Positions 33,378-50,031 of a stretch of 64,000 nucleotides of DNA are shown here, one piece after another. This DNA is from Maridesulfovibrio salexigens DSM 2638 (GTDB taxonomy: Bacteria; Desulfobacterota; Desulfovibrionia; Desulfovibrionales; Desulfovibrionaceae). The DNA is taken from contig NC_012881.1 in the NCBI RefSeq assembly GCF_000023445.1, positions 3,628,001 through 3,692,000 of the forward strand. The letters are read 5' to 3'. Position 1 is the stretch's first letter. Each line of letters begins with the position of its first letter. Below the pieces are notes generated by a model that worked only from the letters and a program-made list of their open reading frames with translations, was not told where the DNA came from and searched no databases. The position numbers were made by a program, and so were the translations under genes.

Positions 33378-34553
33378 CTATTTCTCAATTTTAGAGCTGT
33401 CAGGAGAAATTTGAGGAGTGACCGGAGTTCCGGGACGAATCTTATTCACGCCGTCAGCAATAATCAGGGTCCCGGATTCAATTCCGGTTTTGACAACTGT
33501 ATTGCGGTCGTCGCTGTAATCAACAGTAATGTGCTTTTCTACTACAGTACCGTTAGAAACAGTCAGCAAAGATTTACGTCCCTGAACATCAAGCAACGCC
33601 CTTGTGGGAACCACCAACGCACTGGGGTATTCTTTGAGGCAAACAACAACCTTGGCATATTGTCCATCACGCAGAATCCTTTCCGGGTTAGGAAACTCTG
33701 CGCGAATTCCCAAGGTCCCGGTGGAAGAATCCACTGCACGATCAGCCATGTTGAAAGTTCCATTATAGGCATAGTAGTCACCATCAGCCAGAATAATCTG
33801 GAGATTGGAACCCCTCGCAGGCTTGCCTGCTTTTTTATTAGCCTCTATTTCGCGCGCGGCGACAAGATATTCTCTTTCAGGGATGCTGAAATTTACATAA
33901 ACCGGATCAACAGCAGAAACGGTTACCAGCACAGTTGCTTCAGCAGCAACAAGAGTACCCGGCTCAACCTGAGTTCTACCGATAATGCCATCCATAGGAG
34001 ACTTGATCTGAGTAAAACCCAAATCCAGATTAGCCTGCTCAACCTGTGCCTTAGCGTTACTTACGTTAGCTTCCAGCACCTGCTTGTCGGTAATCTTGGA
34101 ATCGAACTCTTCACGACTAACCGCACCTTGATCAAAAAGGGCCTTAAAGCGTTTGTAATCTTTCTTGGCCTTAGCGAGAGTTGCACGGGTACTGGCAAGT
34201 TCCGCCTCAGCTTTCTTCAGAGCCTCATTATAAGGACGGGGATCAATTATAAAAAGGAGCTGCCCTTCCTTAACCCGCTGCCCTTCAGTGAACAGCCTTT
34301 CTTTGATATGCCCCTGCACACGGGCTTTTATCTCTACGGTCTTCAAAGCTTGAATCTGGGCTACGTATTCTCCCATCACAGGAAATTGGTGTTCCGTAAC
34401 TTTGATCACTTTGACAGGCATGGCTTGAGCAGCCGCCTTTTGATCTTTTTCATCACCAAAACATCCGCCCAAAAGGACCGACATGGTTAACAAGACAAAA
34501 AGAAGAACAACGGATGCCCTCAATCCAGCAACCGCACGAAAAAAAGATTTCAC
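33378..34553 (-). CDS. RND efflux periplasmic adaptor (membrane-fusion) subunit
   Basis: 391 residues from a GTG at 34553, six bases after a GGGGG ribosome site. A signal sequence with a lipobox-like stretch (LLGGCFGD) suggests a lipoprotein anchor, as in AcrA. The HlyD/AcrA fold follows: lipoyl half (TVEIKARVQGHIKERLF), alpha-helical hairpin with coiled coil, second lipoyl half (IKSPMDGIIGRTQVEPGTLV), then beta-barrel and membrane-proximal domains. It bridges the inner-membrane pump to an outer-membrane channel. First gene of a two-gene operon; no local repressor is seen. Confidence 0.95.
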   Translation of the reverse strand: MKSFFRAVAGLRASVVLLFVLLTMSVLLGGCFGDEKDQKAAAQAMPVKVIKVTEHQFPVMGEYVAQIQALKTVEIKARVQGHIKERLFTEGQRVKEGQLLFIIDPRPYNEALKKAEAELASTRATLAKAKKDYKRFKALFDQGAVSREEFDSKITDKQVLEANVSNAKAQVEQANLDLGFTQIKSPMDGIIGRTQVEPGTLVAAEATVLVTVSAVDPVYVNFSIPEREYLVAAREIEANKKAGKPARGSNLQIILADGDYYAYNGTFNMADRAVDSSTGTLGIRAEFPNPERILRDGQYAKVVVCLKEYPSALVVPTRALLDVQGRKSLLTVSNGTVVEKHITVDYSDDRNTVVKTGIESGTLIIADGVNKIRPGTPVTPQISPDSSKIEK

Positions 34554-34703
34554 AAATTCCCCCTAAGTAGCATTTCAAAGAAAGGGACCACCCTCGAAAC
34601 AGCAATCCAACTCCCAATCACAATTATAATAAAAAAAGCAAGGAGACAGTAACCGATTACTATTCCAAAAAAAAGTAAATTATTATGTACCGCACTTAAG
34701 AAA

Positions 34704-35006
34704 CTAATGATGCAATCTGTCTTTGATCTGTTCAATTGCCCGCGGAATCTCCTCCGCAGCCAGCAGCTTTAAACGATCATATTCTGCCTTGAACTCAGCA
34801 CTGGGATAAGTGCGATCCGCAATACTGGAGGAGTACAGGCTTGGAATCTTATTCAAAACCACACAAACTATATCAAACAAACACTTGTCACATTGACAAA
34901 ATTCTATTTCCGCCCGCCCGATAAGTGCCTGCAACTCGTTATAAACTATCTCTTCAGTAAGATTGACAATTTCATCGCTCCTAAAGAAATCCTTCATTGG
35001 CAACAT
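34704..35006 (-). CDS. ComFB-like protein
   Basis: 100 residues from the ATG at 35006, preceded by AAAGGGGGAGA; a longer frame upstream lacks a site. It matches the late-competence ComFB family: an N-terminal helix (NLTEEIVYNELQALI), then CQCDKCLFDIVCVVLNKIPSLY. This is the conserved Cys-X-Cys-X2-Cys followed by LN-x-[IL]-P, with Cys at about residues 36, 38 and 41. ComFB-like proteins occur beside signalling genes, and cyanobacterial members have been reported to bind cyclic dinucleotides. The function here is unknown. It sits between a diguanylate cyclase and the RND pump on the same strand. Confidence 0.8.
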   Translation of the reverse strand: MLPMKDFFRSDEIVNLTEEIVYNELQALIGRAEIEFCQCDKCLFDIVCVVLNKIPSLYSSSIADRTYPSAEFKAEYDRLKLLAAEEIPRAIEQIKDRLHH

Positions 35007-35107
35007 ATTCTCCCCCTTTGCTTGAACCATTAAGATTTCAACACTTATTATTAAAAGTATAGCGCACAACAGCGGCTATTCAAAGCCAATTTTAGAATCC
35101 ATCAAAC

Positions 35108-35138
35108 AAAAAAAATCCGGCACGAAAAACGTACCGGA
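35108..35138 (-). terminator. Terminator after the GGDEF response regulator
   Basis: Minus strand: TCCGGTACG-TTTTT-CGTGCCGGA followed by a long T run. It separates this gene from the ComFB-like gene. Confidence 0.88.
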
Positions 35139-35164
35139 CACTTAAATGAATGATGAATGTAGCG

Positions 35165-36403
35165 TTACCAATCACAAAGGACTTTATTTCTCCCTGTTCT
35201 TTTGGCTTCATAAAGTTTGTCATCTGCACGGCTTACCATTACGGTAAGAGATTCATCCATATTTGCCGTAGCTCCAATTGAAACGGTAAGAGTTATAACC
35301 TGTCCTTTGAAGTCTACAGAAAAAGATCCTACCTCTTCTCTGAAATCTTCAAGAAAATCGAAAAGTTCATCAGCCTGAATCCCATTGAGAAGAACAGTGA
35401 ACTCTTCTCCACCAAACCTTGAGACCAATCCGACATCACCGATATAGTCCGCCAGTAAGGATGAAAAATCTTTTAAAACCTCATCGCCGGCATCATGCCC
35501 GTAAGTGTCGTTAATCTTTTTGAAATGATCAATATCAAGCATGACCACACAAAGCTCATTGCCTGCAGTCATACCCTGCTCATAAATTGGGGTGCCGTAC
35601 TCAAAGAAATACCTCCTGTTCCACAGTCCGGTAAGGTAGTCCTTGTTAGCGCGATCACGGGAAGCCTGAATAAGCTCGATAAATTCAAGGTTGGAGTTTA
35701 CCCGGCAGAGAATTTCCTCAACAGAGGCTGTCTTCTGGATAAAATCATTGGCTCCCTGTTTAAGAAAAAGCGGTGCTGTGCGCGATTTGCTATCCGAAGA
35801 AAGCACTACAATACTTAGCTCTTCCATAGACCGGATTGAGCGCAGATGCGCTGTCAGCTCAAGACCATCCATTTCCGGCATGTAATAGTCGGTCAAAACC
35901 AGCTTAATATCGTTGTTTTTGTAAAAAACTTTTGTAGCAGCACGGCCATCTTCAGCCTGCAACACTGTCAGGCCCTGGCGCATAAGAATTCTGGAAATCC
36001 AATCCCGTACGGAAGTTGAGTCATCAACCACCAGAACCTTGATCCCCTGGTTTTTATAAACACGGCTAACAATACGTGAAATGTACTCAGCCTGATCAGA
36101 CTTCTTGAGTACATAATCAACAATACTTTTCTCAGCCAGAGCACCCAGTGCCTGTTCGTCCAAGGATGAAGTTACAGCAATAGCGGGGATGCTGTTTTCC
36201 AGCAGCAGATCTATACCCATGCCGTATTCCGCATCATCAAGCAGCATGCTGCTCAGCCCGACAAAATACTCATTTGCGGCAATCAATTGCTGTGCACCAT
36301 CATAGGTACAGGCAAGGTCACATTCAAAACCGGCCTTCAATAGAGTTGCCTGGATAAATTTGGCGGTAGCCTTGCTAGGCTCGATAACAAGAACTCTACT
36401 CAC
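35165..36403 (-). CDS. Diguanylate cyclase response regulator (REC-REC-GGDEF, PleD-like)
   Basis: 412 residues, soluble. The first receiver (1-115) appears degenerate: the phospho-Asp region reads FVGLSSMLLDDAEYG. The second receiver has VLVVDDS and phospho-acceptor Asp172 (VLTDYYMPEMDG). The GGDEF domain holds GGEEF at 331-335, the active form, with DIDHFKKINDTYGH. The inhibitory RxxD site is absent, since both key positions (322 and 325) are Gly. It should make c-di-GMP when phosphorylated, without the common product inhibition. Layout is that of PleD. No kinase adjoins it. Confidence 0.93.
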   Translation of the reverse strand: MSRVLVIEPSKATAKFIQATLLKAGFECDLACTYDGAQQLIAANEYFVGLSSMLLDDAEYGMGIDLLLENSIPAIAVTSSLDEQALGALAEKSIVDYVLKKSDQAEYISRIVSRVYKNQGIKVLVVDDSTSVRDWISRILMRQGLTVLQAEDGRAATKVFYKNNDIKLVLTDYYMPEMDGLELTAHLRSIRSMEELSIVVLSSDSKSRTAPLFLKQGANDFIQKTASVEEILCRVNSNLEFIELIQASRDRANKDYLTGLWNRRYFFEYGTPIYEQGMTAGNELCVVMLDIDHFKKINDTYGHDAGDEVLKDFSSLLADYIGDVGLVSRFGGEEFTVLLNGIQADELFDFLEDFREEVGSFSVDFKGQVITLTVSIGATANMDESLTVMVSRADDKLYEAKRTGRNKVLCDW

Positions 36404-36512
36404 AAAAACAATCCCCCGCTAAACAAATAAACAAAAAGGTTAAGCCTGAACTTAACCTACAATTAACAAACGGCTATTTATAAGCCATTATTATTTTTGT
36501 GAAATAACACCA

Positions 36513-36932
36513 TTATTCTCTAACACATGTGTCACATCCACACACTGCATACTTAGAATCTGCCCGTTGCTGGCCGAACAAAAGTTTTATCTTCTTGCGA
36601 AGCTCTTCCAGCATTGCCGGATCAACTTCTGTGACAGGACACTCGACTCCCATCTTAGTGAGACAAAATGTATGTACAGGTTCAATGCCCATTTTTCTCA
36701 GCATAATCTGAGAGCAACCCTTTTCACAGCCATCAATAACAATGAGATCCCTCACCTTGCCAGCTTCCTCAACACACTCATCCAAGCCGGCACCGATCCC
36801 CGCGAGACAAACCATCTTGGCAAAACCGCTTTTATTCAGCTCCACAGCCAGACTGTTTGCAGCCTGTCCTGAGCCTGATCCGCCGGAACAACTGACGACC
36901 ATGAAGCCGGTTTCATATTCTTCATCTATCAT
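36513..36932 (-). CDS. DGC-domain putative zinc-binding protein
   Basis: 139 residues; GGGAGG lies upstream. The DGC family motif is present (VIDGCEKGC), with conserved Cys in VVSCSGGSGSG, the DGC segment and FCLTKMGVEC. The C-terminal CGCDTC adds further thiols. Members are usually found with metal- or arsenic-type permeases and ArsR proteins, as here. The family is predicted to bind zinc or another soft metal through its four Cys. It lies downstream of the permease but behind a terminator. Confidence 0.8.
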   Translation of the reverse strand: MIDEEYETGFMVVSCSGGSGSGQAANSLAVELNKSGFAKMVCLAGIGAGLDECVEEAGKVRDLIVIDGCEKGCSQIMLRKMGIEPVHTFCLTKMGVECPVTEVDPAMLEELRKKIKLLFGQQRADSKYAVCGCDTCVRE

Positions 36933-37001
36933 GCAGTACCTCCCGAAAATATTAATCTGGTCTACAATACCACAACTTCAATCCCAGAAAAAACCCAAAA
37001 T

Positions 37002-37038
37002 AAAAACAGCCGCACTGCCTTAAAGAGCAATGCGGCTG
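37002..37038 (-). terminator. Terminator after the permease gene
   Basis: Minus strand: AGCCGCATTGC / GCAGTGCGGCT stem (one G-T pair) followed by GTTTTTATTTT. Confidence 0.85.
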
Positions 37039-37059
37039 ATAACAGCTAATCCGGGAAAG

Positions 37060-38196
37060 CTAAATAATCATATTAAATAAATAGCCCACGATGAGAATTC
37101 CGCTAGCCACTACCCCGACAAAGACGGCTATCAGCTTAGGCTTAAGCACCTTGCGCAGAATAACCATCTCCGGAAAAGAAAGTGCGATAACACTCATCAT
37201 GAATGCCAGTACTGTTCCGAGAGCCGCTCCCTTACCCAACAGAGCATCAACGATGGGGATAACCCCGGCAGCATTGGTGTACATGGGAATACCCAGAAGG
37301 ACAGAAGCAGGAACCGCCCACCAGACACCCTTACCCATAATGGAGGCCATCATATCTTCGGGAACATATCCATGAATAGCCGCCCCGGCAGCAATACCGA
37401 TCACAACGTACAGCCAGACCTTGCCAACAATTTCTTTGACTGAATCAAGACCGAAAACAACACGGTCCTCAACACTCATACCGTTCTGCGGGCCGTTGTT
37501 TTGCGCACTTGCCAGCTTAACCCAGCCTTCCACATGCTTTTCCATGCCCAGCCTTCCGATGACCCAGCCAGCTACAATTGCGATGGAAATACCGGTAACA
37601 AAATACAGAGCAGCAACTTTCCAGCCCATAAGCCCATACAAAAGGACCAGCGCCACTTCATTAACCATAGGCGCGGAAATCAGAAAAGAAAATGTTACAC
37701 CCAAAGGAACTTCCCCAGCTACAAAGCCGATAAACAGAGGAACGGCTGAGCAAGAGCAGAACGGGGTGACAACACCGAGCAGTGCGGCAAGAACGTTACC
37801 GTATGATTCACGCTTTCCGGCAAGAACTTTTCGAGTCCACTCCACAGTCACATATGAGCGGATAATGCCAATACCGAAGACAACCAGTACCAGCAGCATC
37901 AACACCTTAGGTGTATCGTAGATAAAAAATTGAACCGCTTCACCTAGGTGACTGCCCGGAAGAAGGCCGAACAAATCAAAAGCCGCATACTTGGAAAATG
38001 GCAGCAACTGCGAATAAATGGCATACCAGACAACCAGTCCACCGCCCATTGCAGCCCAAAGAGCATTACCTTTAATAGGTAAAGTGGATTCCTCCTGCTC
38101 TTCAACAACAGTTTCAGCTTCAGAATTTATGCCCAGAGGTTCCAAGCCCTTAGATTCTGACGAACACGCGCAAGGTTTAATATTTAACTCTTCCAT
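37060..38196 (-). CDS. Metal/metalloid permease, ArsP_1 (DUF318) type
   Basis: 378 residues with about nine to ten membrane segments; GGGAG before the ATG. The hallmark thiol motif TPFCSCSAVPLFIGF lies in the membrane region, followed by SAPMVNEVALVLLYG and, in the second half, GIPMYTNAAGVIPIVDALL. These define the PF03773 permease family (ArsP, SO_0444-type). The N-terminal tail adds CACSS. Members export organoarsenicals, or by other reports copper/zinc or thiol-bound metals; the substrate here is open. ArsR lies upstream on the same strand and a DGC protein downstream. Confidence 0.9.
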   Translation of the reverse strand: MEELNIKPCACSSESKGLEPLGINSEAETVVEEQEESTLPIKGNALWAAMGGGLVVWYAIYSQLLPFSKYAAFDLFGLLPGSHLGEAVQFFIYDTPKVLMLLVLVVFGIGIIRSYVTVEWTRKVLAGKRESYGNVLAALLGVVTPFCSCSAVPLFIGFVAGEVPLGVTFSFLISAPMVNEVALVLLYGLMGWKVAALYFVTGISIAIVAGWVIGRLGMEKHVEGWVKLASAQNNGPQNGMSVEDRVVFGLDSVKEIVGKVWLYVVIGIAAGAAIHGYVPEDMMASIMGKGVWWAVPASVLLGIPMYTNAAGVIPIVDALLGKGAALGTVLAFMMSVIALSFPEMVILRKVLKPKLIAVFVGVVASGILIVGYLFNMII

Positions 38197-38210
38197 TGTT
38201 TTCTCCCGTC

Positions 38211-38226
38211 TTTATATTTTGCCAAA
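38211..38226 (-). repeat. 16-bp element upstream of permease (inverted copy of the one before arsR)
   Basis: On the minus strand it reads TTTGGCAAAATATAAA and lies directly before the permease ribosome site. An exact copy in the opposite orientation is at 38636-38651. A likely ArsR operator/promoter element. Confidence 0.6.
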
Positions 38227-38250
38227 TACGAAACTATTTATTCAAAAAAG

Positions 38251-38279
38251 AACAGCCGCAACAAAGTCACAGCTGTTCC
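38251..38279 (-). terminator. Terminator-like hairpin between arsR and permease
   Basis: Minus strand: GAACAGC ... GCTGTTC followed by TTTTTT. It may end part of the arsR transcript, giving the permease its own control. Confidence 0.6.
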
Positions 38280-38282
38280 TGC

Positions 38283-38612
38283 TTACAATTTTTTTATAGA
38301 ACTTGCAGCGTAGGCCTTAGCCTGCTCTTCAAATTTCCTTGCAAAAAAGTTTTCAAGACAATTCAGGAATCCCGGCACACAATCCATATTCAGGCTGTAA
38401 TACACGTTGGTCCCCCGCTTATTGTCCTTGAGCACCCCTGCATCCTTGAGCAGGGAAAGATGTTTGGACACAGTGGAAATATCCCGTCCCACTATGGGAA
38501 CAATATCGCAGACGCAAAGTTCTCCGTCACACAGAGCTTCAACAATAGCAAGCCTGCTGGGATGCCCCAGCGCCTTGAACACTTTTGATTTCGTCTCGAT
38601 ATTTGCTGTCAT
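38283..38612 (-). CDS. ArsR-family metal-responsive repressor
   Basis: 109 residues plus stop from the ATG at 38612, eight bases after GGAG; a longer frame begins at 38681 but is not needed. The winged helix-turn-helix has ALGHPSRLAIVEALCDGELCVCDI, then RDISTVSKHLSLLKDAGVLKDNKRGTNVYY. The ELCVCD motif is the metal/metalloid-sensing Cys pair of the alpha-3 helix (ArsR/SmtB type). Repressor of the adjacent permease, released by a thiophilic metal or arsenite (inference from family and context). Confidence 0.94.
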   Translation of the reverse strand: MTANIETKSKVFKALGHPSRLAIVEALCDGELCVCDIVPIVGRDISTVSKHLSLLKDAGVLKDNKRGTNVYYSLNMDCVPGFLNCLENFFARKFEEQAKAYAASSIKKL

Positions 38613-38635
38613 GATAACTTCTCCAAACTTTCCTG

Positions 38636-38651
38636 TTTGGCAAAATATAAA
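38636..38651 (+). repeat. 16-bp element upstream of arsR
   Basis: TTTGGCAAAATATAAA on the plus strand, 24 bases before the arsR start. It is the exact inverted copy of the element at 38211-38226, so the two flank arsR. Confidence 0.6.
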
Positions 38652-38745
38652 AATTAACTCAATTCTGTCAAGTTCCGGCAATCATAATCTCCGTGAACAG
38701 AAGACAGAAAAAAGGATAACCATTCAGTATAGCGCGTAAATAAAA

Positions 38746-39249
38746 TTAAGCGGAATGTCTAGATGATTCCATTTTCCATTCACGAACCATCTCCCGAACA
38801 TCTTCATACTGTGCGCTATCTTTTTTGTAATGCTCAGCAAAGACATGCAGGGCAGTCCCACCACGAGGCGAAAAGATACCTTTCACCCGCATCCACAGAG
38901 GAGAAAGACGACCCACAAAATGGTCGAGGATATTATTGGTAATGGTTTCCATGAAAGATTGATGGTTGCGGTAAGCACCCATGTACAGCTTGAAACTCTT
39001 GGACTCAACGCAAAGTTCATCAGGAATGTATTCCACAATGATAGTCGCGAAATCCGGCTGACCGGTCACTGGGCAAAGCGATGTATATTCCGGGAATTCA
39101 ATACTTACAATGTAGGGCCTGCCCGGGAAATTGTTCGGGAAGGTTTCAAGGATTTCGGGACCCGGAGTATTGTAGTTGTACTCTGTTGCCCCCGCCTGAC
39201 CGAGAGAAACAAGGGATTCGGTCTTATCCTGACTTTTGGTAGTTTTCAT
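38746..39249 (-). CDS. queF: NADPH-dependent 7-cyano-7-deazaguanine (preQ0) reductase QueF
   Basis: 167 residues from the ATG at 39249, preceded by GGAGAAGATCACT; the frame is open 41 codons further up without homology. Unimodular (Bacillus-type) QueF. Nucleophile Cys59 and Asp66 lie in EFPEYTSLCPVTGQPDFA, and the NADPH motif follows (ESKSFKLYMGAYRNHQSF). It reduces the nitrile of preQ0 to preQ1 in queuosine synthesis. It is divergent from the queuosine-precursor transporter gene yhhQ, 255 bases away. Confidence 0.96.
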   Translation of the reverse strand: MKTTKSQDKTESLVSLGQAGATEYNYNTPGPEILETFPNNFPGRPYIVSIEFPEYTSLCPVTGQPDFATIIVEYIPDELCVESKSFKLYMGAYRNHQSFMETITNNILDHFVGRLSPLWMRVKGIFSPRGGTALHVFAEHYKKDSAQYEDVREMVREWKMESSRHSA

Positions 39250-39504
39250 AGTGATCTTCTCCATAGATAAACAGTCTAATCTGAAAAGGGCCTTTATCGA
39301 GTCCCGGCTGTTAGCAGCTTGCCCGCCAAAAGAAAACCTCCGCGAGACCTTATTTCCATTTTGACTTTTCACTCAAATGCTGGCAACCCTGCAGCTTGAA
39401 TATTTGCCCCGAAACGGAACTGTCGAGGCGCGGGACTTTCTCCCTTTTGCTCGTGTCGGGCGGAATCCGTTTCAAAACAAGCACATCCAACACAAGGGAA
39501 CCCA

Positions 39505-40143
39505 ATGCTCTCTTCAACATTTGAACGCAAAGCGTTCACTCTTCTGACGAGCCTTTTCATCGGCTCGCTGGTCATGGCCGCGGTTGTATCAACCAAGATC
39601 ATCAACATCTTCGGCTTTTACGCCCCCGCAGGAGTACTGGCCTACTCCGTTACCTTTATTGTCTCGGATATTATCAGTGAAATCTGGGGGAAGGAAAGGG
39701 CAAATGAAGTTATCCACTGCGGATTCATTGCCCTACTGACCGCCATCGCCCTTTCATGGGCCGCCCTGCACTGGACAGCTGCCCCCTTCTGGCACGGACA
39801 GGAAGGTTTTGCCAGCGTACTCGGCAATACCCCGCGCATTGTCCTTGCATCACTGATGGCTTATCTGGTCAGCCAGACAAATGATGTTTGGCTCTTCCAT
39901 TTCCTGCGCAAGCTGACAAAAGGCAATCATCTCTGGTTGCGCAACAACCTCTCAACCATTGTTTCACAGCTCATTGACTCGACTATATTCGTTACCATCG
40001 CCTTCTACGGCGTAATGCCCGTAACAGATATCATCATAGGTCAATGGGTCGCCAAAGTATGTATTGCTTTTCTGGACACTCCGCTGGTCTATGCCGGAGT
40101 AAGCCTGCTCAGACAACGCACACCACTGGCCGCCACATCCTGA
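39505..40143 (+). CDS. yhhQ: Queuosine precursor transporter YhhQ
   Basis: 212 residues with six membrane segments; AAGGGA upstream. Family phrases are VAAVVSTKIINIFGFYAPAG-like near the N-terminus (here MAAVVSTKIINIFGFYAP), IVSDIISEIWGKERANEVI, and VSQLIDSTIFVTIAFYG. It imports preQ0/preQ1. Together with the divergent queF it forms a queuosine salvage and synthesis locus. The 255-base gap was inspected for a preQ1 riboswitch; the class-I consensus was not recognised. Confidence 0.95.
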   Translation: MLSSTFERKAFTLLTSLFIGSLVMAAVVSTKIINIFGFYAPAGVLAYSVTFIVSDIISEIWGKERANEVIHCGFIALLTAIALSWAALHWTAAPFWHGQEGFASVLGNTPRIVLASLMAYLVSQTNDVWLFHFLRKLTKGNHLWLRNNLSTIVSQLIDSTIFVTIAFYGVMPVTDIIIGQWVAKVCIAFLDTPLVYAGVSLLRQRTPLAATS

Positions 40144-40211
40144 TCTCCCGCTCTAAAAATGTTCTCCACAGTCTACATCAGTGGAGTTACATTTAGTTGT
40201 TATTCTGATAC

Positions 40212-40256
40212 ACTGTCTCCATATTTCGCGTGTAAACATTGAAATATGGAGACAGT
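40212..40256 (+). promoter_or_regulatory. Perfect 16-bp inverted repeat over the luxP-like ribosome-binding site
   Basis: ACTGTCTCCATATTTC (40212-40227) is exactly complementary to GAAATATGGAGACAGT (40241-40256), with a 13-base loop. The right arm contains GGAG, the Shine-Dalgarno site of the luxP-like gene, whose ATG begins at 40258. As RNA it would hide the ribosome site; as DNA it would be a 45-bp operator. A weak sigma-70 promoter (GTTACA, 17 bases, TACACT at 40209-40214) would start transcription inside the repeat, so the two readings are not settled. Confidence 0.75.
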
Positions 40257-40257
40257 A

Positions 40258-41358
40258 ATGAATCTCAAACTATTTTCGTCCGTCATAGCCCTCTTTGCAA
40301 TTCTGCTTTTCGCAATACCTGCCAAGGCCGAAAAATACTTCACTCTCGACCAATACATTAAAATTCATCCCACTGAAAAAATTCTGGAAGATCGCTTTAA
40401 TAAGATCGTTAAAAGAAATGACGTTACGCGACTTAAAAAACAATTGAGTCCTAAAATAGCCATTGTATATCCCGGAGGAGAAGTCTCGGATTACTGGCGC
40501 AGAAGCACTAAATCCTTCGAAAACAGGATTCACCAATACGGTGCTACTCCCCGTATTTCTAAATTTTATATTAATGCCTCAGAAACAATGGGCAAGCAGG
40601 TAGCCATTTTCCAGAAGGCCCTTGCAACCGACCCGGACTACCTTTTCTTTACCCTTGATGCTCTGAGGCACCAAAGAATGATTGAGCCTATCCTAATTAA
40701 AGGAAAGCCCAAAATAATACTCCAGAACATTACTACCCCGCTTAAGGCCTGGGAAGATAAACAACCCTTCATGTACGTTGGATTTGACCATGCACGCGGA
40801 ACAAGAATGCTTGCCGAGTATTTTGCCCGCAAAACAGGTGGACGCGGCAGCTACGCAATTCTCCTGCCGAATCCCGGTTATTTGAATGAAGAAAGAGGAA
40901 ATTCCTTTATTTCATATATGGACAACAACACATCCCTCAAACTGGCAACTGCTTTCCGCACCGGAATCAATAAAAAAAGAGCACGGGTGGCAACTTTGAA
41001 TATTGCTACACAATACCCGGATATTAAATTTATCTACGCCTGCTCTACAGATATTGCTCTTGGAGCAGTTGAAGCATTGCAAGAAAAGGATATGCTCCAA
41101 CAAATCATGGTCAACGGCTGGGGTGGCGGTACACCTGAGATAAAAGCAATTGAAAATGGAGAACTGGATGTCACGGTAATGCGCATCAACGATGACAACG
41201 GCGTAGCCATGGCCGATGCTGTGATTCTTGATATGCTTGGACAAAAATCACTTATTCCCCTTGTATTTTCCGGTAGGTTTGAAATATTGGAAAAAGGTGT
41301 AAGTGCAAAACGACTGCACCAACTGCAACAGGAAAGCTTTCGCTACTCCGGAAACTAA
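40258..41358 (+). CDS. luxP: LuxP-like periplasmic AI-2-binding protein
   Basis: 366 residues from the ATG at 40258 (GGAG seven bases upstream). The signal peptide is MNLKLFSSVIALFAILLFAIPAKA. Unlike generic sugar-binding proteins, it follows Vibrio LuxP along its length: YPGGEVSDYW, FFTLDALRH, ILQNITTPLKAWEDKQPFMY, VGFDHARGTRMLAEYF, YACSTDIALGAV, NGWGGGTPEI, VMRINDDNGVAMA and the C-terminal FRYSGN. AI-2 contact positions kept: Ser77, Asp78, Trp80, Asn157, Arg213, Ser263, Thr264, Asp265, Trp288 and Arg309. Gln77 of V. harveyi LuxP is Glu75 here. It should bind AI-2 or a close relative in the periplasm and control the kinase encoded next. Confidence 0.92.
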   Translation: MNLKLFSSVIALFAILLFAIPAKAEKYFTLDQYIKIHPTEKILEDRFNKIVKRNDVTRLKKQLSPKIAIVYPGGEVSDYWRRSTKSFENRIHQYGATPRISKFYINASETMGKQVAIFQKALATDPDYLFFTLDALRHQRMIEPILIKGKPKIILQNITTPLKAWEDKQPFMYVGFDHARGTRMLAEYFARKTGGRGSYAILLPNPGYLNEERGNSFISYMDNNTSLKLATAFRTGINKKRARVATLNIATQYPDIKFIYACSTDIALGAVEALQEKDMLQQIMVNGWGGGTPEIKAIENGELDVTVMRINDDNGVAMADAVILDMLGQKSLIPLVFSGRFEILEKGVSAKRLHQLQQESFRYSGN

Positions 41359-41370
41359 AAGGATTCATGA

Positions 41371-44046
41371 ATGAAGCTGTTCTCAAGGAAGGCTCTGGGA
41401 CTGACAATACAACTACTGACCCCTATGCTGGCTTTGGTAGTTGTCATGGGAATATTCATACTTTCATGGTCTTTCTATTTGTCCAAAACCACCCTTGAAA
41501 GCGAAATAGCCATTGATATTGAAAAAACAGAAAGCATTGTTGCTCTCTCTCTAAACAACACACTCGAAGACATTAAAGATGACCTTATTGAAATGACTCT
41601 GGATCCTAATTTCCGGGGCGCAATCATTTCCGGTGACAGTGAAACCCTTGACCAGAAGCTGTACGAATTTATGAACTCCCGCCAAGGGTATCTTCTGGAC
41701 GTTCTGACCATTTACCGGGAAGGGCGAAACTGGGTTGAAGCCGGAGTCATCGAACTACCAATCGTTCAACTTCGTAATAAATTCAAAAACACTATGACCA
41801 CGTCTCCGGCTTGGGGTTACCTTTCATTCAGATCATTAAATAGCATCAGGACCATGCTGGTCTGTGCTGTCCCTGTTTTCAATGAACATACCGGTGAGGT
41901 CGCCGGAATCCTTTACGGCGGGATCGATCTGAACTCCAACGTATCTTTTATAGATCGACTGAAAGATGTATCAAGCGCAATTAACGCAGCCCTCATCAGC
42001 AGACACAGGTTAATCATAAGCACATCCAATCCCTCTAAACCGGAGATGAAAAAGCTCGTTGACTGGACTCTGGGTATCAAACCGGGTGATTTTAAAATTG
42101 ATGAGGAGCTTATCTACTCTACCATCCAGCTACTCCCACAGCAGGCAGACAGCCCATTGCTATTCAGTTTTGTAAGGCAAAACCCTTCGTTCCAATCCTT
42201 AAAGAAAAATTACATGCAGAATCTGGGTATCCTTCTTTCACTGGCAACCCTTTTGGCTATATTTACTGCTTGGGCATTGCAAAAAAGGATTCTAAAAGCA
42301 CTGAAAATGCTTACTGATTATGCCCAGAACGTAGCATCCGGAGAACGAGAAACAAATTTCATCCCCGGTCAGGTAAGGGAATTCAACCAACTGGGCTCGA
42401 TGCTCGAGAACATGGTTGCAAAACTGGACGAAAACAGCGTCTATATTTCTAAACTATTCTCCTCAGCAAAAGCGCCAATCATTAACTGCGACACAACCGG
42501 AGTTGTCCTTGATATGAATCCGGCAGCAGCGAAACTTATAGGTTTTGACGAAAAACAGGTTTTAAGCAAAACACTGAATAATCTTTTTCCGGGAAACTAT
42601 CAGGAGACGATAGACGAAGCATTGCAACAGGCTATGGTAGGTGATTTCACTCCGGTTCTGGAATTACCGATCCGTCCGGTGGAAGGAGATGAAAAATATT
42701 TTATCTGGACATTTTCTCCAGTTCGGATGGAATCCAAGGAAGATGCAGACTTTATTCTCCTTCAGGGCCTCGATATAACCGAAAGCAAGAAAGCAACAAA
42801 AAAAGCTCAGGAAAGTGAAGCACGGCTAAGTCAGGTAATCAATCTGCTGCCACAAGAAATATTCGCCAACGACCTTGAAGGTAAATTTTTGCTGGTAAAC
42901 AGCATCAAAGCCGAAAAGATGGGGATTCCTGCTTCTGAGATTACCGGAAAATACCTGCCGGAGATAATAACTGATCCGGTGGAAGTAACCCGTATTCTTG
43001 AAGATGACCGCATGGTCATTGAAAGAAATGAAAAGCTCCTCACCGAAGAGAGTTTCCGCGATGAGAACAGGGTAACCCACTGGATTGAAACAACACGGGT
43101 TCCCTATACCACAGCAGAAAACAACACCCCGGCTATCCTGACGATTTCCACAGATATCTCCCGCATCAAAGAAGTTGAGCAGGAGATGAAATCCTTGAAC
43201 AAAGAGCTGGTGGAAAGGGTCGCCATGCGAACCACCGAACTGGAAAACGCCAACTCAGCCTTACTTAAATCTATGGATGAACTGCGCCAGACTCAGGATA
43301 AACTGGTTGAAACGGAAAAGATGGCTTCTCTCGGGGAGCTTGTTGCCGGAGTAGCTCATGAAATCAACACCCCGCTTGGGATCAGTGTAACCAGCGCTTC
43401 ATTTATTAAAGAGCTGACCGAAACCCTGCAACACAACTTTGAATCCGGCACCATGAAAAAGTCGGACCTTGAAAAGTTCCTGAAAACCGGCAGCGAGGCT
43501 CTCGATAACATAATGAAAAACCTTGAGCGCTCAGCAACACTTATCAGCAACTTCAAGCAGCTAGCAGTGGACCAGACTTCTGATGATGTCCGCCAAATCA
43601 ACCTGCACGAATACATTCAGGGAATCCTGCTGTCGCTCAAGCCAAAATTCAAGACATACAAGCATGAAATAACTGTGGACTGCCCCAAGGGGCTGGAAAT
43701 TAATATTTCACCCGGCTCACTAATGCAGGTCATAACAAATATTGTAAGCAACTCTCTGACCCATGCTTTCCCGGATACGGATGAAGGGAATATATCCATT
43801 ACTGCTGAACGCAGCGGCAAAGGGGTCAAACTCACCTTCTCAGACAACGGCATCGGAATGGGAACGGAGCAAGTATTAAAAGTATTTGAACCGTTTTACA
43901 CCACAGCCAGAAGTGAGGGCTATACAGGACTCGGCATGCATCTGGTATACAACCTTGTAACCAGAGCACTGAACGGAACGATTGAATGTCAGAGTTCGCC
44001 GGGAGAGGGAACCACATACGAAATATGGTTTCCTGAAGGAGAATAA
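41371..44046 (+). CDS. LuxQ-like membrane sensor kinase (no receiver domain)
   Basis: 891 residues; AAAAGGA seven bases before the ATG and 12 bases after the luxP-like stop. Membrane segment at about 14-37. The periplasmic domain (40-280) shows the LuxQ pattern, for example MLVCAVPVFNEHTGEVAG where LuxQ has MLVRRVPILDPSTGEVLG. Membrane segment at about 283-302 and a HAMP-like linker follow, then PAS (about 355-470), PAS (about 485-600) and a coiled coil. HisKA has His663 (GELVAGVAHEINTPLG) and HATPase_c has FSDNGIGMG and GLGMHLVYNLV. Vibrio LuxQ ends in a receiver; this protein does not. It has two cytoplasmic PAS domains instead. It converges on the REC-GGDEF gene with two bases between stops. 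Confidence 0.92.
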   Translation: MKLFSRKALGLTIQLLTPMLALVVVMGIFILSWSFYLSKTTLESEIAIDIEKTESIVALSLNNTLEDIKDDLIEMTLDPNFRGAIISGDSETLDQKLYEFMNSRQGYLLDVLTIYREGRNWVEAGVIELPIVQLRNKFKNTMTTSPAWGYLSFRSLNSIRTMLVCAVPVFNEHTGEVAGILYGGIDLNSNVSFIDRLKDVSSAINAALISRHRLIISTSNPSKPEMKKLVDWTLGIKPGDFKIDEELIYSTIQLLPQQADSPLLFSFVRQNPSFQSLKKNYMQNLGILLSLATLLAIFTAWALQKRILKALKMLTDYAQNVASGERETNFIPGQVREFNQLGSMLENMVAKLDENSVYISKLFSSAKAPIINCDTTGVVLDMNPAAAKLIGFDEKQVLSKTLNNLFPGNYQETIDEALQQAMVGDFTPVLELPIRPVEGDEKYFIWTFSPVRMESKEDADFILLQGLDITESKKATKKAQESEARLSQVINLLPQEIFANDLEGKFLLVNSIKAEKMGIPASEITGKYLPEIITDPVEVTRILEDDRMVIERNEKLLTEESFRDENRVTHWIETTRVPYTTAENNTPAILTISTDISRIKEVEQEMKSLNKELVERVAMRTTELENANSALLKSMDELRQTQDKLVETEKMASLGELVAGVAHEINTPLGISVTSASFIKELTETLQHNFESGTMKKSDLEKFLKTGSEALDNIMKNLERSATLISNFKQLAVDQTSDDVRQINLHEYIQGILLSLKPKFKTYKHEITVDCPKGLEINISPGSLMQVITNIVSNSLTHAFPDTDEGNISITAERSGKGVKLTFSDNGIGMGTEQVLKVFEPFYTTARSEGYTGLGMHLVYNLVTRALNGTIECQSSPGEGTTYEIWFPEGE

Positions 44047-44048
44047 AA

Positions 44049-44960
44049 TCAGGTCAAATCGGTCCAGAGGACCATATTTCTTCCCCTGCGCTTAGCCTCG
44101 TAAAGCATCGAATCAGCGCCGACGGTTAAATCCTGAGCCTTTGAAAAGGTGGATGGGATCACAGTCACTCCGCCAAGACTTACCGTCAGCACATTACTTA
44201 CTGAAGAAAAACCGTGCTTGATACCCAACTCAGAAATTAAAACCCTGATTTTTTCGGCAATATACCTGCCGCCATCTGAATCTGTCTCCGGGAGCAGGAG
44301 AACAAATTCTTCTCCGCCGTATCGTGCGGCAACATCTGCCGGACGTTGGACCTCAGCCAGTAAGAGATCAGCAACTTTCTTAAGAACTTCATCTCCGGCA
44401 GTATGACCGTAGTTATCGTTATATTGCTTGAAACAGTCTACATCGAGCATAGCCAGCGACATTTTATCCCCGGAACGACTACAACGGCGCCACTCCCTGT
44501 CCAAAGCCAGTTCAAAACTTCTTCTATTGGGCATTTCAGTAAGACCGTCCAGATTGGCAAGTCCTTCCAATAATTTTCTCTGTCTGGCTATGGTCAGGTG
44601 ATTCTTTATCCTTGCCTTGACGATTGGGGGATGGAAAGGCTTGCGAATATAATCCACGGCACCCATTTCAAGACCGCGGGCCTCATCATGCTCGGAATCA
44701 AGGGCAGTAATAAAAACAACCGGAATATCCTTACTTTTATCGGAAGTTTTGATTTTACGCAGAACTTCATACCCATCCATTTCCGGCATAAGAACATCCA
44801 GCAGCACCAGATCAGGAGGATTATCAGAATTCACACGATCAAGAGCCTGATTGCCATTTTTAGCCAAGACAACCTTATAGTCCTGACGCAACAGATCGGA
44901 AAGGACATTGAGATTCAAACGCTCATCATCAACAATTAGTATTTTAGCTCTCTCTTCCAT
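44049..44960 (-). CDS. REC-GGDEF diguanylate cyclase response regulator
   Basis: 303 residues. The receiver has ILIVDDE and phospho-acceptor Asp55 (LVLLDVLMPEMDGYE). The GGDEF domain has GGEEF at 215-219, and the inhibitory I-site RxxD is present at 206-209 (RPAD), so product inhibition is expected. It makes c-di-GMP on phosphorylation. The ATG lies five bases after the stop of the giant hybrid kinase on the same strand, so the two form an operon and are likely partners. The luxQ-like gene converges on it from the other side and is a possible second input (inference). Confidence 0.94.
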   Translation of the reverse strand: MEERAKILIVDDERLNLNVLSDLLRQDYKVVLAKNGNQALDRVNSDNPPDLVLLDVLMPEMDGYEVLRKIKTSDKSKDIPVVFITALDSEHDEARGLEMGAVDYIRKPFHPPIVKARIKNHLTIARQRKLLEGLANLDGLTEMPNRRSFELALDREWRRCSRSGDKMSLAMLDVDCFKQYNDNYGHTAGDEVLKKVADLLLAEVQRPADVAARYGGEEFVLLLPETDSDGGRYIAEKIRVLISELGIKHGFSSVSNVLTVSLGGVTVIPSTFSKAQDLTVGADSMLYEAKRRGRNMVLWTDLT

Positions 44961-44965
44961 TGATC

Positions 44966-47900
44966 TTATCCTTTATCCAGCGGGATATTCAGTTCATCGG
45001 CAATTCTTTCCAACAGGAACCGCCCATCTTCAAAATCAAAATTTTCAATATAGCGGGTTAATTCAGCAAGCTGACCTTCAAATCTTTCCAGATTAAAATG
45101 ATTTCGCAATTCAGCCAGAACATCGCCACATTCGGCATCACCTTCACCGAGCATTATATACAGCTTATTGATAAGATTAAAACTTTTTTCTTTATCATAC
45201 ACATATTCCCGGACATTGCCCCCACCACCAACTTTAAGACCCTGCAATCCCTTAATTACCAGATCAAGCTCTGAGACAAAAAGCAGTAGGTCATCTTCAT
45301 ACCCGCTACGATCAGTATCTCGAAGATCTCCCTCCAGAAGGCGACAGAATTCATAAAGTTTTACAGCTCCGATATTTCCGGAAATACCTTTCAAAGAATG
45401 AATTTTAATCAGGGCCTGTTCAGGTCCTGAATCAGCTAGGGCTGCTTTCAATTCCTCTTGAAAATCTCCATACCGATCCTTGAATCCTTGCAGAACTTTC
45501 AGGTAACTTTCCTTATTGCCACCGATATTGCGCAGTCCCTTTGCGCAGTCTATTCCGGGCAAGTCCGGCATTTCTTGCTCATTCCCTGACAACTCACAGG
45601 AAGAAGGCACATAAACGATATCCTCTGCGTTCAGGTATTTAACCAAAGCTCTTTTCAATTCCTCCGGATCAATGGGCTTGGTCAAATGTTCATTCATGCC
45701 TGCTTCAAAACTTTTCTCCCTGTCCCCCGGCATGGCGTGTGCTGTCATAGCCAGAATAGGCAGGTTACGGTAGCGTTCATCGGAACGGATTATCCTGGAC
45801 GCAGTCAGCCCGTCCATTTCTGGCATCTGAATGTCCATAATAACCAGACTGTATGGCTCTGACTCCAAGGCCTCCAAAGCCTTACGGCCATTGTCGGCAA
45901 CATCGACATCAAGCCCCATACCTTCAAGCATTCTCCGGGCAACCTGCTGGTTTAGTTCATTATCTTCTACAAGAAGAATTTTAGGACTCTGCCCAGTCAA
46001 CTCTAAATCAACAGCATCTTGCACATCTGCATCCGGAATAAGCATATGCTGAACATCATTAAATTCACCCTGCAAAGCAGCATATAATGAAAGACGCGAA
46101 ACCGGACGGGTAACAAATCCGTCAACACCGACCAGAGCTGCTTCCTTACGAAAGGATTCGTCCATATTTACTGGAGACATTAAAATAATAGGGACATGCA
46201 TCAACTTGGGCATGTTCCTGATCCGCTCAACAACCTCAAGGACATGCATATCCTGTATTTTTCCAGAAACAAGAATTAATCCTAACCCATCAACATCTAT
46301 CGACTCTGCAAGCCTTTCAAGTGCACTTGAAGCTGTGCTGTCCACCATGACTGTAATGCCGGATTTTTCCATTGTGGAACGGATGAATTCACGGGCCATC
46401 ATATTGCCCTCAATCACAAGAGACTTCATGCCCGCTTTTCCTGCCGGCAAAACAAATGAACTCCCCCTATCCATAGCGCTCATCTTCACTGTAAAATAAA
46501 AAGAGCTTCCTTCTCCGGGATGACTTTCAACACTGACTGTCCCGCCCATTAACTCCACAAGGGAACGAGCAATTGCCAGCCCCAAACCTGTCCCACCGTA
46601 TTTACGGGTGGTTGAAGCATCAGCCTGCGTAAAAGAATTAAATAATACGGACACTTCTTCACTACTTAAACCGATTCCACTGTCACGTACGATAAACTTT
46701 ATGCTGGCTTCCCCGGTACAGTTCTCCTCACAAGTGACAATAAGATTAACCTCACCTCTATCAGTGAACTTCACCGCGTTGTTCACAAGGTTAGTCAGAA
46801 CCTGCTCAAGACGTAACGGATCGCCGCGTAAAAACAAAGGAACGTCAGGACCGACGGACAGAATAAAATCGATCCCTTTGGATTCCGCTTTGACTGAGAC
46901 CATATTGCAAATTTTTTCCAACACATGGTCCAGCTGAAACTCTACGGCTTCCAGCACGAATTTACCGGCCTCAATCTTGGAAAAGTCAAGAATATCACCA
47001 ATAATTGACAGCAGGGAATCGGCGGACGACATCATCTTGTTCAGGTACTCACGCTGTGCCGAATCAAGATCGGCACTTTGCATCAAATGTCCGAATCCGA
47101 TGATGCTGTTCATGGGAGTACGAATCTCATGGCTCATATTGGCAAGGAATTCTGATTTTGCACGAGTGGCGGCTTCCGCAGCCAGCCTTGCCCTATTGAG
47201 TTCCTGTTCCACCCTTCTACGCTCGGTCACATTACGCATACACTCAACAGCACCGACAACCTTCCCGGAATGATCGCGCAGCGGTCCGGCAACTCCCCAA
47301 AAATATGCTCCCTGTCCATTGAATGCTCTGGGGGTATATACTTCACCATAAAGCATTCCATAGCGCCGCTCCAAAGACTCATAGCGATCAGTCAGAGGTT
47401 CGAGATCGTCTTTAAGAGCGGAATCAATAAGAATCGGCCTGCGTTCACCATAAAAAGGTAATGCATATTCATAATCAGCCTTGCCGATCATATCCTGCTT
47501 GCTGACCCCGGTAACCTCTTCAACGGCTTTATTCCAAGCCAGCACAACCCCGTTACTATCAATAACAATAGTCGGGTCAGGCAGGAATTCGATAATGTCA
47601 TTCAACCGCTGATAGGAATCCCGCAATTCATTTTCGCTCAATCGTTTTCTAGTCACATCCCGGAAACTCCAGACCCTGCCGACAATATCAGAGCCTATGC
47701 GCTGGGGGTTGGAATATTTCTCTACAATTCTACCGTCCACCAGTATGAGCTCCTCAATCTGTCCCGCTTCCGACTCCAGCGAGTAATCCCAAAGGCCATG
47801 TACAGAACTCCCCTCTTCCAACTGATCAGCAATATATCCGAAAACATCGGAAACAACTCCGGACCGCAAGATATGTTCCGTGATGTTCCACATGCTTGAA

Positions 47901-49909
47901 AAACGAGAGTTCCATGCTACCACCTGTCCATAGCCGTCCACGGCAAGGATGCCATCTGCAGATGATTCAATGGTAGCGGTCAGGAGTGAAACAGAACGTT
48001 CAATCTCTTCCTTGCTGCGGCGCTTCTCGGTGACATCTCGCAAGGTAGCCTGAATGAAGGGAGTACCACTGATGACCATCTTGCGTGCGCGAACACTTGC
48101 ATAAAATTCTTCCCCGTCAGACCGACGGCAAATAAGATCAAAATCCAAGCCCCCGGCATCAATGGTCTTCCCTACCCATTCATCCAGAAGATCACTGGAA
48201 GATTCTCCTTCGCGCTGATTAGGGGCAACAAGATTCTCTGGACGGTAAGAAAGCAATTCTTCTTCTGAGCCGCAACGAAACATCGAAACAGCTTCAGGGT
48301 TAGCACTAAAGAATTTGTAATTTAAATCCATCAGCAAAATTGCATCGCTGGCATTATCAAAAATAGATCGATACTTAATTTCCCTTTCTTTCAAGGCTTC
48401 ATTTTTATTTCGCCCCTGCTCCATAAGATACAACCTTTCAAGAGCAAACCCCACATATGAGGAAAGGAACAGCAATACCTCAAAATCTTTTTTATCAAGA
48501 GGCTCACTTTCACAATAGCTTTGGACAGCCATCGCCCCTACAACTTCCCCTTGAAGTTTCAAGGGAACACCTAGCCAGATATTGCACTCAGGACCGATAA
48601 GTACATACTCCCCATTATCGCGAAGTTTCATACGGGTTTCAAAATCTCCGAACAACGGTTCACCGGTTTTGATAACATAATCAGTCAACCCGATTCCCAT
48701 TTTTCGCGTTTCCGGAGCCTCCTCCTTCTCATCAGAAAAATAAGGGAAACTGATCATATCTGTTTCCCGGTCATAAGCAGCAATATAGAAATTTCGCGCA
48801 TGCATGAGCTGATTCACCTGCCCCTGAACGATGGAGTAGAACTCATCGATACCGGAGACACGGGATACAGACATCGCTATCTCATATAGTCTCTTATGGA
48901 CCTTCTCCATGCGGCGGCGCTGCGCAACCTCTGTATTCAAAGATTCATTAAGTCTAAAAAGTTTACGGTTCCAAAAAATAATCGCGGTGAGAGCAAGTGC
49001 CATGAACGCAAAAAGAAGCACAATCTCAGTATACTTCACGGACTGCTCATAGCGCACGTCAAACCATTTTTTGCGAATTTCTCGATGAGAGTTTTTACTT
49101 ATAGCGGCAAGGGTTTTATTGATGATTGACAGGGCTTCAGGATATTCCGGGGACACACCGATTCTATGATCGAATTTATATCTGGTAGTTCCTGCAATTT
49201 TAAGGTTCTCAACTCCAAGCAGATTCATATTTTCGACCACTACAGCAAGATGCCCCACAAAAGCATCTACCTGCCCCTTGGTCAAAAGAAGAAGGCCGTC
49301 CTCCACATCGGAGGTGCCGACAAGCTCTATTTCAGGAAAATTATCTTCGATATAGTGATAGCTGGTGTACGATTGCCCTGCGGCAACCCTCTTGCCGTTG
49401 AACTGCGACAAGTCCCGCACATTCCCGTACTTTTCTCCGGTTACGATAACCAGAGGAAATGAAACATAAACATCTGAAAACAAAACTTCTCGTCCGACCA
49501 TGTCCTCGCTGCTAAGGGCCGGGATAACATCCAACTCCCCTTCAGTGTATTTACGTAGAACATCCGCCCATGAATCACTTGGGACAAATTCAAAGTTAAG
49601 ACCGGACATTTCTGAGATCATATTCATATAATCCGCGATAATTCCCCGGAACTTCCCTTTTTTATCAATTATGGACAAAGGTTCCCAGTCCACCTCACTC
49701 ATTTTGAGCGGCACACCCCTGCGAACAAAAGCTTCTTCTTCAGGACTTAATTTCAGAGGAAATGGCGAGCTCTCCCTAACAACTGGCTCAGCATTTGCAA
49801 CTGAGAACGCAACACTGTCTACTGGAACTACGAAGAATAAAAGGAAGAGAAGGACACAAAAAAATTGTAAACGAAAAGAAATATCATTGTCCGAAATTTT
49901 AAGAATCAA
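44966..49909 (-). CDS. Giant hybrid histidine kinase (SBP_bac_3-GAF-PAS-HisKA-REC-HPt)
   Basis: About 1647 residues. The start is taken as TTG at 49909, seven bases after AAGGGGA and followed by a normal signal peptide; a TTG at 49978 lacks a site. Order: periplasmic SBP_bac_3 solute-binding domain (about 55-290), membrane segment (about 305-325), GAF, four PAS domains, HisKA (MSHEIRTPMNSIIG), HATPase_c, a receiver-like domain without a clear Asp box, a true receiver (VIMDIQMPEMDG), and a C-terminal HPt (HSLKGISGNIGA). The full phosphorelay is in one chain. The EvgS/BvgS-like sensor suggests it binds an amino-acid-like ligand. The next gene is a REC-GGDEF protein, a likely output. Confidence 0.93.
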   Translation of the reverse strand: MILKISDNDISFRLQFFCVLLFLLFFVVPVDSVAFSVANAEPVVRESSPFPLKLSPEEEAFVRRGVPLKMSEVDWEPLSIIDKKGKFRGIIADYMNMISEMSGLNFEFVPSDSWADVLRKYTEGELDVIPALSSEDMVGREVLFSDVYVSFPLVIVTGEKYGNVRDLSQFNGKRVAAGQSYTSYHYIEDNFPEIELVGTSDVEDGLLLLTKGQVDAFVGHLAVVVENMNLLGVENLKIAGTTRYKFDHRIGVSPEYPEALSIINKTLAAISKNSHREIRKKWFDVRYEQSVKYTEIVLLFAFMALALTAIIFWNRKLFRLNESLNTEVAQRRRMEKVHKRLYEIAMSVSRVSGIDEFYSIVQGQVNQLMHARNFYIAAYDRETDMISFPYFSDEKEEAPETRKMGIGLTDYVIKTGEPLFGDFETRMKLRDNGEYVLIGPECNIWLGVPLKLQGEVVGAMAVQSYCESEPLDKKDFEVLLFLSSYVGFALERLYLMEQGRNKNEALKEREIKYRSIFDNASDAILLMDLNYKFFSANPEAVSMFRCGSEEELLSYRPENLVAPNQREGESSSDLLDEWVGKTIDAGGLDFDLICRRSDGEEFYASVRARKMVISGTPFIQATLRDVTEKRRSKEEIERSVSLLTATIESSADGILAVDGYGQVVAWNSRFSSMWNITEHILRSGVVSDVFGYIADQLEEGSSVHGLWDYSLESEAGQIEELILVDGRIVEKYSNPQRIGSDIVGRVWSFRDVTRKRLSENELRDSYQRLNDIIEFLPDPTIVIDSNGVVLAWNKAVEEVTGVSKQDMIGKADYEYALPFYGERRPILIDSALKDDLEPLTDRYESLERRYGMLYGEVYTPRAFNGQGAYFWGVAGPLRDHSGKVVGAVECMRNVTERRRVEQELNRARLAAEAATRAKSEFLANMSHEIRTPMNSIIGFGHLMQSADLDSAQREYLNKMMSSADSLLSIIGDILDFSKIEAGKFVLEAVEFQLDHVLEKICNMVSVKAESKGIDFILSVGPDVPLFLRGDPLRLEQVLTNLVNNAVKFTDRGEVNLIVTCEENCTGEASIKFIVRDSGIGLSSEEVSVLFNSFTQADASTTRKYGGTGLGLAIARSLVELMGGTVSVESHPGEGSSFYFTVKMSAMDRGSSFVLPAGKAGMKSLVIEGNMMAREFIRSTMEKSGITVMVDSTASSALERLAESIDVDGLGLILVSGKIQDMHVLEVVERIRNMPKLMHVPIILMSPVNMDESFRKEAALVGVDGFVTRPVSRLSLYAALQGEFNDVQHMLIPDADVQDAVDLELTGQSPKILLVEDNELNQQVARRMLEGMGLDVDVADNGRKALEALESEPYSLVIMDIQMPEMDGLTASRIIRSDERYRNLPILAMTAHAMPGDREKSFEAGMNEHLTKPIDPEELKRALVKYLNAEDIVYVPSSCELSGNEQEMPDLPGIDCAKGLRNIGGNKESYLKVLQGFKDRYGDFQEELKAALADSGPEQALIKIHSLKGISGNIGAVKLYEFCRLLEGDLRDTDRSGYEDDLLLFVSELDLVIKGLQGLKVGGGGNVREYVYDKEKSFNLINKLYIMLGEGDAECGDVLAELRNHFNLERFEGQLAELTRYIENFDFEDGRFLLERIADELNIPLDKG

Positions 49910-50031
49910 TGTAACTGTCCCCTTGTAAGAAACTATTGCGGTCCAAACAAAAATAGCATCAGTGGGTTCAATGAACAAGGAAGGGTTTGCTTCAGAGAGT
50001 CCACAACTCTTTCACACTACGCTCAGAGGGA

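Follow-up and report, generated by a model that had tools for sequence, protein, structure and literature searches.

It has long been asked whether bacteria other than Vibrio and the enteric ones perceive autoinducer-2 (AI-2) as a signal, and the question is raised again by a locus in the sulfate reducer Maridesulfovibrio salexigens DSM 2638. The window, a stretch of 64,000 nucleotides (positions 3,628,001 to 3,692,000 of NC_012881.1, forward strand), belongs to a genome of one contig of 4,289,847 bases. Two adjacent genes at 40258-44046 of the window quite probably encode a LuxP/LuxQ-type AI-2 receptor pair with a simple kinase output, a pair first proposed in a first-pass annotation of this DNA. 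The features of the locus are as follows.

40258..41358, + strand: luxP-like gene for a periplasmic LuxP-family protein (predicted to bind AI-2), 366 aa plus stop; assigned by homology, fold and contact residues
40258..40329, + strand: putative Sec signal peptide of LuxP, MNLKLFSSVIALFAILLFAIPAKA, cut before E; read from the sequence by eye
41371..44046, + strand: luxQ-like gene for a membrane sensor histidine kinase, 891 aa, with LuxQ-periplasm/dCache, PAS, PAS, HisKA and HATPase_c domains (Pfam)
41482..42063, + strand: LuxQ-type periplasmic (double Cache) domain; PF09308 at residues 38-231, and model structure matches
43330..44037, + strand: kinase core, HisKA (654-731) to HATPase_c (783-889); Pfam

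LuxP and the adjoining kinase

The gene at 40258-41358 was confirmed to encode LuxP. A GGAG motif lies six bases before its start at 40258, and an alternative in-frame ATG is found at 40246, 12 bases upstream. The protein is likely to be exported, judging from its N-terminal Sec signal peptide. A MAFFT alignment with V. harveyi LuxP, covering almost the full length, gave 40% identity, and a phmmer search of the Protein Data Bank (PDB) matched residues 27-366 to V. harveyi LuxP with an E-value of 1.3e-82. An AlphaFold2 model, built from the window protein plus 37 rows from the genome scan described below, reached a predicted local distance difference test score (pLDDT) of 92.9. The first eight PDB matches of this model were all LuxP (template modelling score to target 0.89-0.93, 39-40% identity), and the ninth was a ribose-binding protein. 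The likeness to LuxP along the whole length, as first annotated, is thus borne out, and the model shows the LuxP fold, its contact residues lining up with those of LuxP.

Pfam places the protein in the Peripla_BP_4 superfamily, which also includes LsrB (LuxP-LsrB identity about 11%; PMC7584622). This shared superfamily is what would speak for a ribose-type transport binding protein lying beside a kinase by chance. Such a reading is extremely improbable: LuxP is the closest solved relative by 70 orders of magnitude in E-value (best non-LuxP chain, a monosaccharide-binding protein, 4.6e-12 by phmmer), the adjoining kinase is of the LuxQ type, and no ABC-transporter gene was seen by reading and family searches among the open reading frames (ORFs) of window 34000-50000. 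A quick tree was also built from 77 rows, after 23 LuxP rows (mostly Vibrio near-copies) and one outgroup row had been dropped from 101. Here the LuxPs, with the window protein among them, split from six further proteins encoded by this genome with an SH-like approximate likelihood ratio (SH-aLRT) support of 98, although the outgroup branches are very long, as the program warned. Neither outcome named beforehand as a refutation, a tree position outside the LuxP clade or a model with the listed residues away from the pocket, came about.

The kinase gene starts 12 bases after the luxP stop, as had been annotated. Its product carries the LuxQ-periplasm domain PF09308 (E 6.8e-17; 62.2 bits, cut-off 25.7), which was absent from 14 control genomes, and matched LuxQ in the PDB with an E-value of 8.4e-7. 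When residues 1-354 were modelled (AlphaFold2, pLDDT 85.1), the first six PDB matches were all LuxQ periplasmic chains (E 2.9e-11 to 3.5e-9, 15-18% identity), and other Cache domains ranked after them, from about 3e-7. The annotated resemblance of this domain to LuxQ therefore holds. The fold class of the LuxQ periplasmic domain, dCache, is also that of the dCache (CahR) AI-2 receptors. In the kinase core, HisKA scored 24.7 bits, slightly under its cut-off of 26.9; the putative phospho-accepting His663, located by motif, lies at 43357 in VAHEINTP.

The locus shares with the LuxPQ of V. harveyi and V. cholerae (1JX6, 1ZHH, 2HJ9, 3C38) the LuxP fold, the contact residues, the luxP-luxQ order and the LuxQ-type periplasmic domain. 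Unlike Vibrio LuxQ, the window kinase contains two PAS domains and gave no match to Response_reg or Hpt in Pfam, and it scored 212.4 bits with the NCBIfam model LuxQ_Vibrio (NF041947), under the equivalog cut-off of 1200 bits; its LuxP differs by a Glu at position 77. The genome has 22 Hpt matches, of which 10 lie in open frames no longer than 146 aa, and a LuxU-like protein may be among these. Because the kinase lacks receiver and Hpt domains, a relay from the LuxQ receiver to LuxU and LuxO is not indicated and was set aside. Of the LuxPQ branch that had been proposed, LuxP and the LuxQ-type kinase stand, and the Vibrio-type relay is not supported.

The predicted AI-2 pocket and a probable source of the signal

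Seven residues hydrogen-bond AI-2 in 1JX6, namely Q77, S79, W82, N159, R215, T266 and R310 (PMC9687752). Six of the seven are identical in the window LuxP, the exception being Q77, which is Glu75 there. Conservation was assessed over 94 aligned LuxPs, namely V. harveyi LuxP and those of 93 loci, one of them the window; among these, L044 and L105 represent a single contig. W82, N159, R215, T266 and R310 were identical in all 94; S79 was kept in 92, with Thr in the other two, and Q77 in 91. Glu was found at position 77 only in the window and in two distant rows, L024 and L052, while all nine congeners compared have Gln, so that among these it is specific to the window species. Glu75 is thus a rare, scattered change. 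The ten residues first listed as kept are all kept on LuxP numbering, four of which (Asp78, Ser263, Asp265 and Trp288) fall outside the published contact set. The genome holds eight other PF13407 matches, of which one, below cut-off, was excluded; the seven compared have one or two of the seven contacts each, and three of them look, by reading, like LacI-type regulators. The agreement of the window protein with LuxP therefore exceeds chance.

The Gln77 to Glu75 change is present as the first-pass annotation had it, together with the suggestion that it could tune the form of the ligand. The latter was not upheld. Gln77 and Trp82 bond the C4 hydroxyl of the ligand, Gln77 not being described there as a borate contact (PMC12921845), and the borate-like group is linked to Arg215 and Arg310 (PMC3794749). 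Glu75 would therefore affect affinity more than borate. Since the position is Gln in nine congeners, Glu75 is a weak basis for ligand tuning, and the idea was set aside.

A search of the genome for luxS, suggested at the outset, found the gene (PF02664, 193 bits; over the NCBIfam cut-off of NF002604) adjoined by the gene of the methylthioadenosine/S-adenosylhomocysteine nucleosidase, pfs, also over its NCBIfam cut-off. With both genes, the species can probably make the signal it would hear. Over the order, luxS is present in 9/199 genomes and in 6 of the 14 with LuxP. Outside the order, 22 of the 49 LuxP genomes searched have it: 7/7 in Campylobacterota, 14/18 in Gammaproteobacteria (three Vibrio controls included) and 1/24 in the others (Alphaproteobacteria, 0/14). 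These absences are soft, because many assemblies are draft or metagenome. LuxP-bearing relatives without luxS would listen only.

The scarcity of luxS among LuxP genomes, in the order and in those 24, would also suit a receptor of LuxP fold whose main ligand is some other furanose-like or borate-forming sugar, AI-2 then being a minor ligand or no ligand at all. Glu in place of Q77 and the reported action of L-xylosone and L-xylulose on Vibrio LuxP (PMC12921845) point the same way. This is considered unlikely. Across 94 proteins from several phyla the contacts hardly vary, which would be expected of a single shared ligand, and the genomes lacking luxS may be those of listeners.

For an AI-2 receptor pair, the following mechanism is proposed. 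LuxP would be exported and would then take up AI-2 between its two lobes, in the cleft; the retention of R215 and R310 makes the borate form the probable one. It would dock on the double-Cache periplasmic domain of the adjoining kinase, and its occupancy would alter the kinase or phosphatase state of the LuxQ-like protein. In V. harveyi, AI-2 binding switches LuxQ from kinase to phosphatase (PMC7584622); by analogy, the same direction would be the simplest guess. Phosphate would pass straight to an unlinked response regulator, bypassing a receiver domain and LuxU/LuxO.

LuxP beyond Vibrio, its partners and its loss

The novelty first attached to a Desulfovibrio-like LuxP did not survive comparison with the literature. 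Homologues from Desulfovibrio and Desulfuromonas were in print in 2008, among them Dde_3311, which was described without a luxQ neighbour, unlike the window luxP (PMC2561040). In a 2016 review, three Desulfovibrio species are listed with LuxP, and D. salexigens with LuxQ and LuxS (PMC5187520, Table 3); that table has no LuxP entry for D. salexigens, so the pair was not joined there. The printed Desulfovibrio homologues have 41-44% identity (PMC2561040; PMC5187520). A 2025 survey counted 267 LuxP proteins in Proteobacteria and Deferribacterota, and three chosen sensor domains bound AI-2 (PMC12268683). LuxP outside Vibrio, mainly in Proteobacteria, is thus known from that survey, the main text of which does not mention LuxQ, so that partner proteins are not named there. 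LuxQ was among the most limited quorum-sensing proteins in a 2022 study (PMC8895600), and D. vulgaris is reported to react to AI-2 without luxP (PMC7845633). LuxP, LuxQ and LuxS of Desulfovibrio species are already known from papers of 2016 and 2021, after the LuxP homologues of 2008, and the pair is therefore of a known kind. Its variant points are the kinase without a receiver, a pairing that stays constant while the outputs change, and natural losses among members of a single genus.

A scan of genome contigs gave 268 loci with LuxP relatives. The best 80 of the 268 were kept, and those of named origin include Desulfobacterota, Campylobacterota, Alphaproteobacteria, Oceanospirillaceae, other Gammaproteobacteria, one Spirochaetaceae metagenome-assembled genome and Vibrio. 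In the quick tree, the Vibrio LuxPs formed a single nested clade amid many lineages, and the window LuxP fell with its congeners in a clade of ten (support 100). The LuxPs of the genus did not group with those of two further genera in its family; a single clade of these two groups of Desulfovibrionaceae LuxPs was rejected by the approximately unbiased test (p-AU 0.009, 57 rows), a test chosen after the tree had been seen. Over the order, LuxP (E at most 1e-30) was detected in 14/199 genomes and 3/43 genera, and PF09308 in 15/199 genomes. Both were present in 12 genomes, LuxP alone in two, PF09308 alone in three and neither in 182. The two with LuxP alone, G115 (L106) and G110 (L107), carry orphan LuxPs like Dde_3311, and no PF09308 was found anywhere in these two genomes.

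By a rule of size and distance, 85 of the 93 LuxP loci have a candidate adjacent ORF. The other eight are two at a contig edge (L036 and L088), the family's two orphans and four from Motilimonas (L043, L045, L060 and L094). In the Motilimonas loci no LuxQ-type gene lies alongside luxP, the rest of the genome not having been searched. Pfam was run on 56 of the 85 partners; the remainder were 25 Vibrio loci, three near-copies and L074, where the contig breaks off behind luxP. PF09308 was found in 54 of the 56, across lineages; the exceptions are L053 and L039, the latter an upstream kinase of a different sensor type.

The outputs of these partners vary. HATPase_c was found in 43, GGDEF plus EAL in nine and SpoIIE in one, and no output domain was seen in three, of which L064 and L066 reach the contig end and L069 is a 315-aa protein. 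Receiver domains were present in 13 of the 56 and Hpt in four. Three non-hybrid partners (L017, L037 and L052) have, by reading, an apparent receiver-domain gene directly behind the kinase, as would suit phosphate passing directly to a response regulator. In the SpoIIE case (L025:8221-10455), a LuxQ-type sensor on a SpoIIE phosphatase adjoins luxP, and small partner-switching-like genes, noted by eye, lie behind it. A 2016 count gave 115 LuxQ-periplasm proteins, 112 on kinases and one with a GGDEF-type output (PMC4822843), so that a single non-kinase case was already known in number. No report of LuxP paired with non-kinase outputs was found in the open-licence literature, which omits most subscription papers.

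Within the genus, six of 14 genomes have luxP, luxQ and luxS, four have luxP and luxQ without luxS, one (G100) has luxQ and luxS without luxP, two (G109 and G155) have luxQ alone and one (G114) has none. The three luxQ genes without luxP encode full-length kinases carrying PF09308, PAS and HATPase_c, and in two of these HisKA is matched at the 0.001 threshold. In G155 and G109, luxQ lies at the same place, behind a queuosine-transporter gene. Remnants there match the region before and at the luxP start of L098 (G109, 69% over 190 bases, E 1e-17; G155, 69% over 162 bases, E 4e-10) and also the last luxP codons (78-79% over 37-38 bases, E in the 1e-4 range), as would be left by an internal deletion. 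No luxP remnant was seen in G100.

These retained kinases, and the weak match of the window kinase to dCache_1 (34.1 bits, cut-off 45), would fit a kinase that senses through its own Cache domain, with LuxP an accessory or on the way to being lost. This is very unlikely, as LuxP adjoins a LuxQ periplasmic domain in nearly all partners scanned and the two occur together in 12/14 LuxP genomes of the order. After luxP loss the periplasmic domain also evolved fast against the kinase, with branch ratios of 5.7 in G155, 7.5 in G109 and 2.8 in G100, compared with 0.8-3.9 in ten kinases that have luxP beside them. In G109 and G155, however, PAS changed fast as well, and any speed-up stands out against the kinase core and not against the PAS region.

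Several points weigh against an AI-2 receptor pair in the window. AI-2 is assigned as the ligand by likeness to LuxP, whose Q77 is replaced here, and no gene is assigned to the presumed response regulator. The periplasmic domain is weakly similar to Vibrio LuxQ over the fold alignment, and the three congeners with luxQ and no luxP indicate that the kinase can be kept for some LuxP-independent use. Over the order, luxP and luxS are strongly associated (Fisher p 2.8e-6), but no association is seen inside the genus (luxS in 6/10 luxP genomes vs 1/4 without luxP, p 0.56), and the order-wide association may for that reason reflect shared ancestry.

Neighbouring genes and biological meaning

Three further genes lie close to the pair.

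44049..44960, - strand: convergent REC-GGDEF gene, 303 aa (Pfam); its stop is 3 bases from the luxQ stop
44966-49978, - strand: hybrid kinase, 1670 aa, with GAF-like, PAS, receiver and Hpt parts
39505-40143, + strand: queuosine precursor transporter gene (TIGR00697, 187 bits), directly upstream of luxP

No receiver-domain gene lies directly behind luxQ in the window, the place being taken by the convergent REC-GGDEF gene, which is found there in all five luxP-bearing congeners examined. It is conceivable that REC-GGDEF is the output of the window kinase. It may rather serve the hybrid kinase, since it lies 5 bases behind that gene on the same strand, and it was set aside as a sure output of the window kinase. 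The two genes probably form one signalling operon convergent with luxPQ. The queuosine transporter gene is similarly placed in the five congeners. A preQ1-type or other riboswitch at this gene was rejected, as Rfam at gathering thresholds gave two tRNAs as the sole matches in the window. Further off, at 37063-38681 on the - strand, an ArsR-type regulator adjoins a permease akin to the SaoE and Cu-Zn efflux families, below cut-offs.

On a wider view, LuxP and the LuxQ periplasmic domain may form a portable AI-2 input module in several phyla. It would be fused to kinases, hybrid kinases, GGDEF-EAL proteins or a SpoIIE phosphatase, drive phosphorelay, cyclic di-GMP (c-di-GMP) signalling or partner-switching, and occur mostly in listeners without luxS. 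In Maridesulfovibrio-type bacteria it would have been gained separately from family relatives and would now be disappearing bit by bit, so that a single genus offers natural knock-outs of luxP, luxQ and luxS. The chances that this whole picture is right are about even. A sulfate reducer with pfs-luxS, LuxP and a LuxQ-type kinase, and congeners without luxP, luxS or both, make a comparison within one genus possible. One sensor module on varied outputs also predicts that AI-2 would control c-di-GMP through the GGDEF-EAL proteins of Stappiaceae and Oceanospirillaceae.

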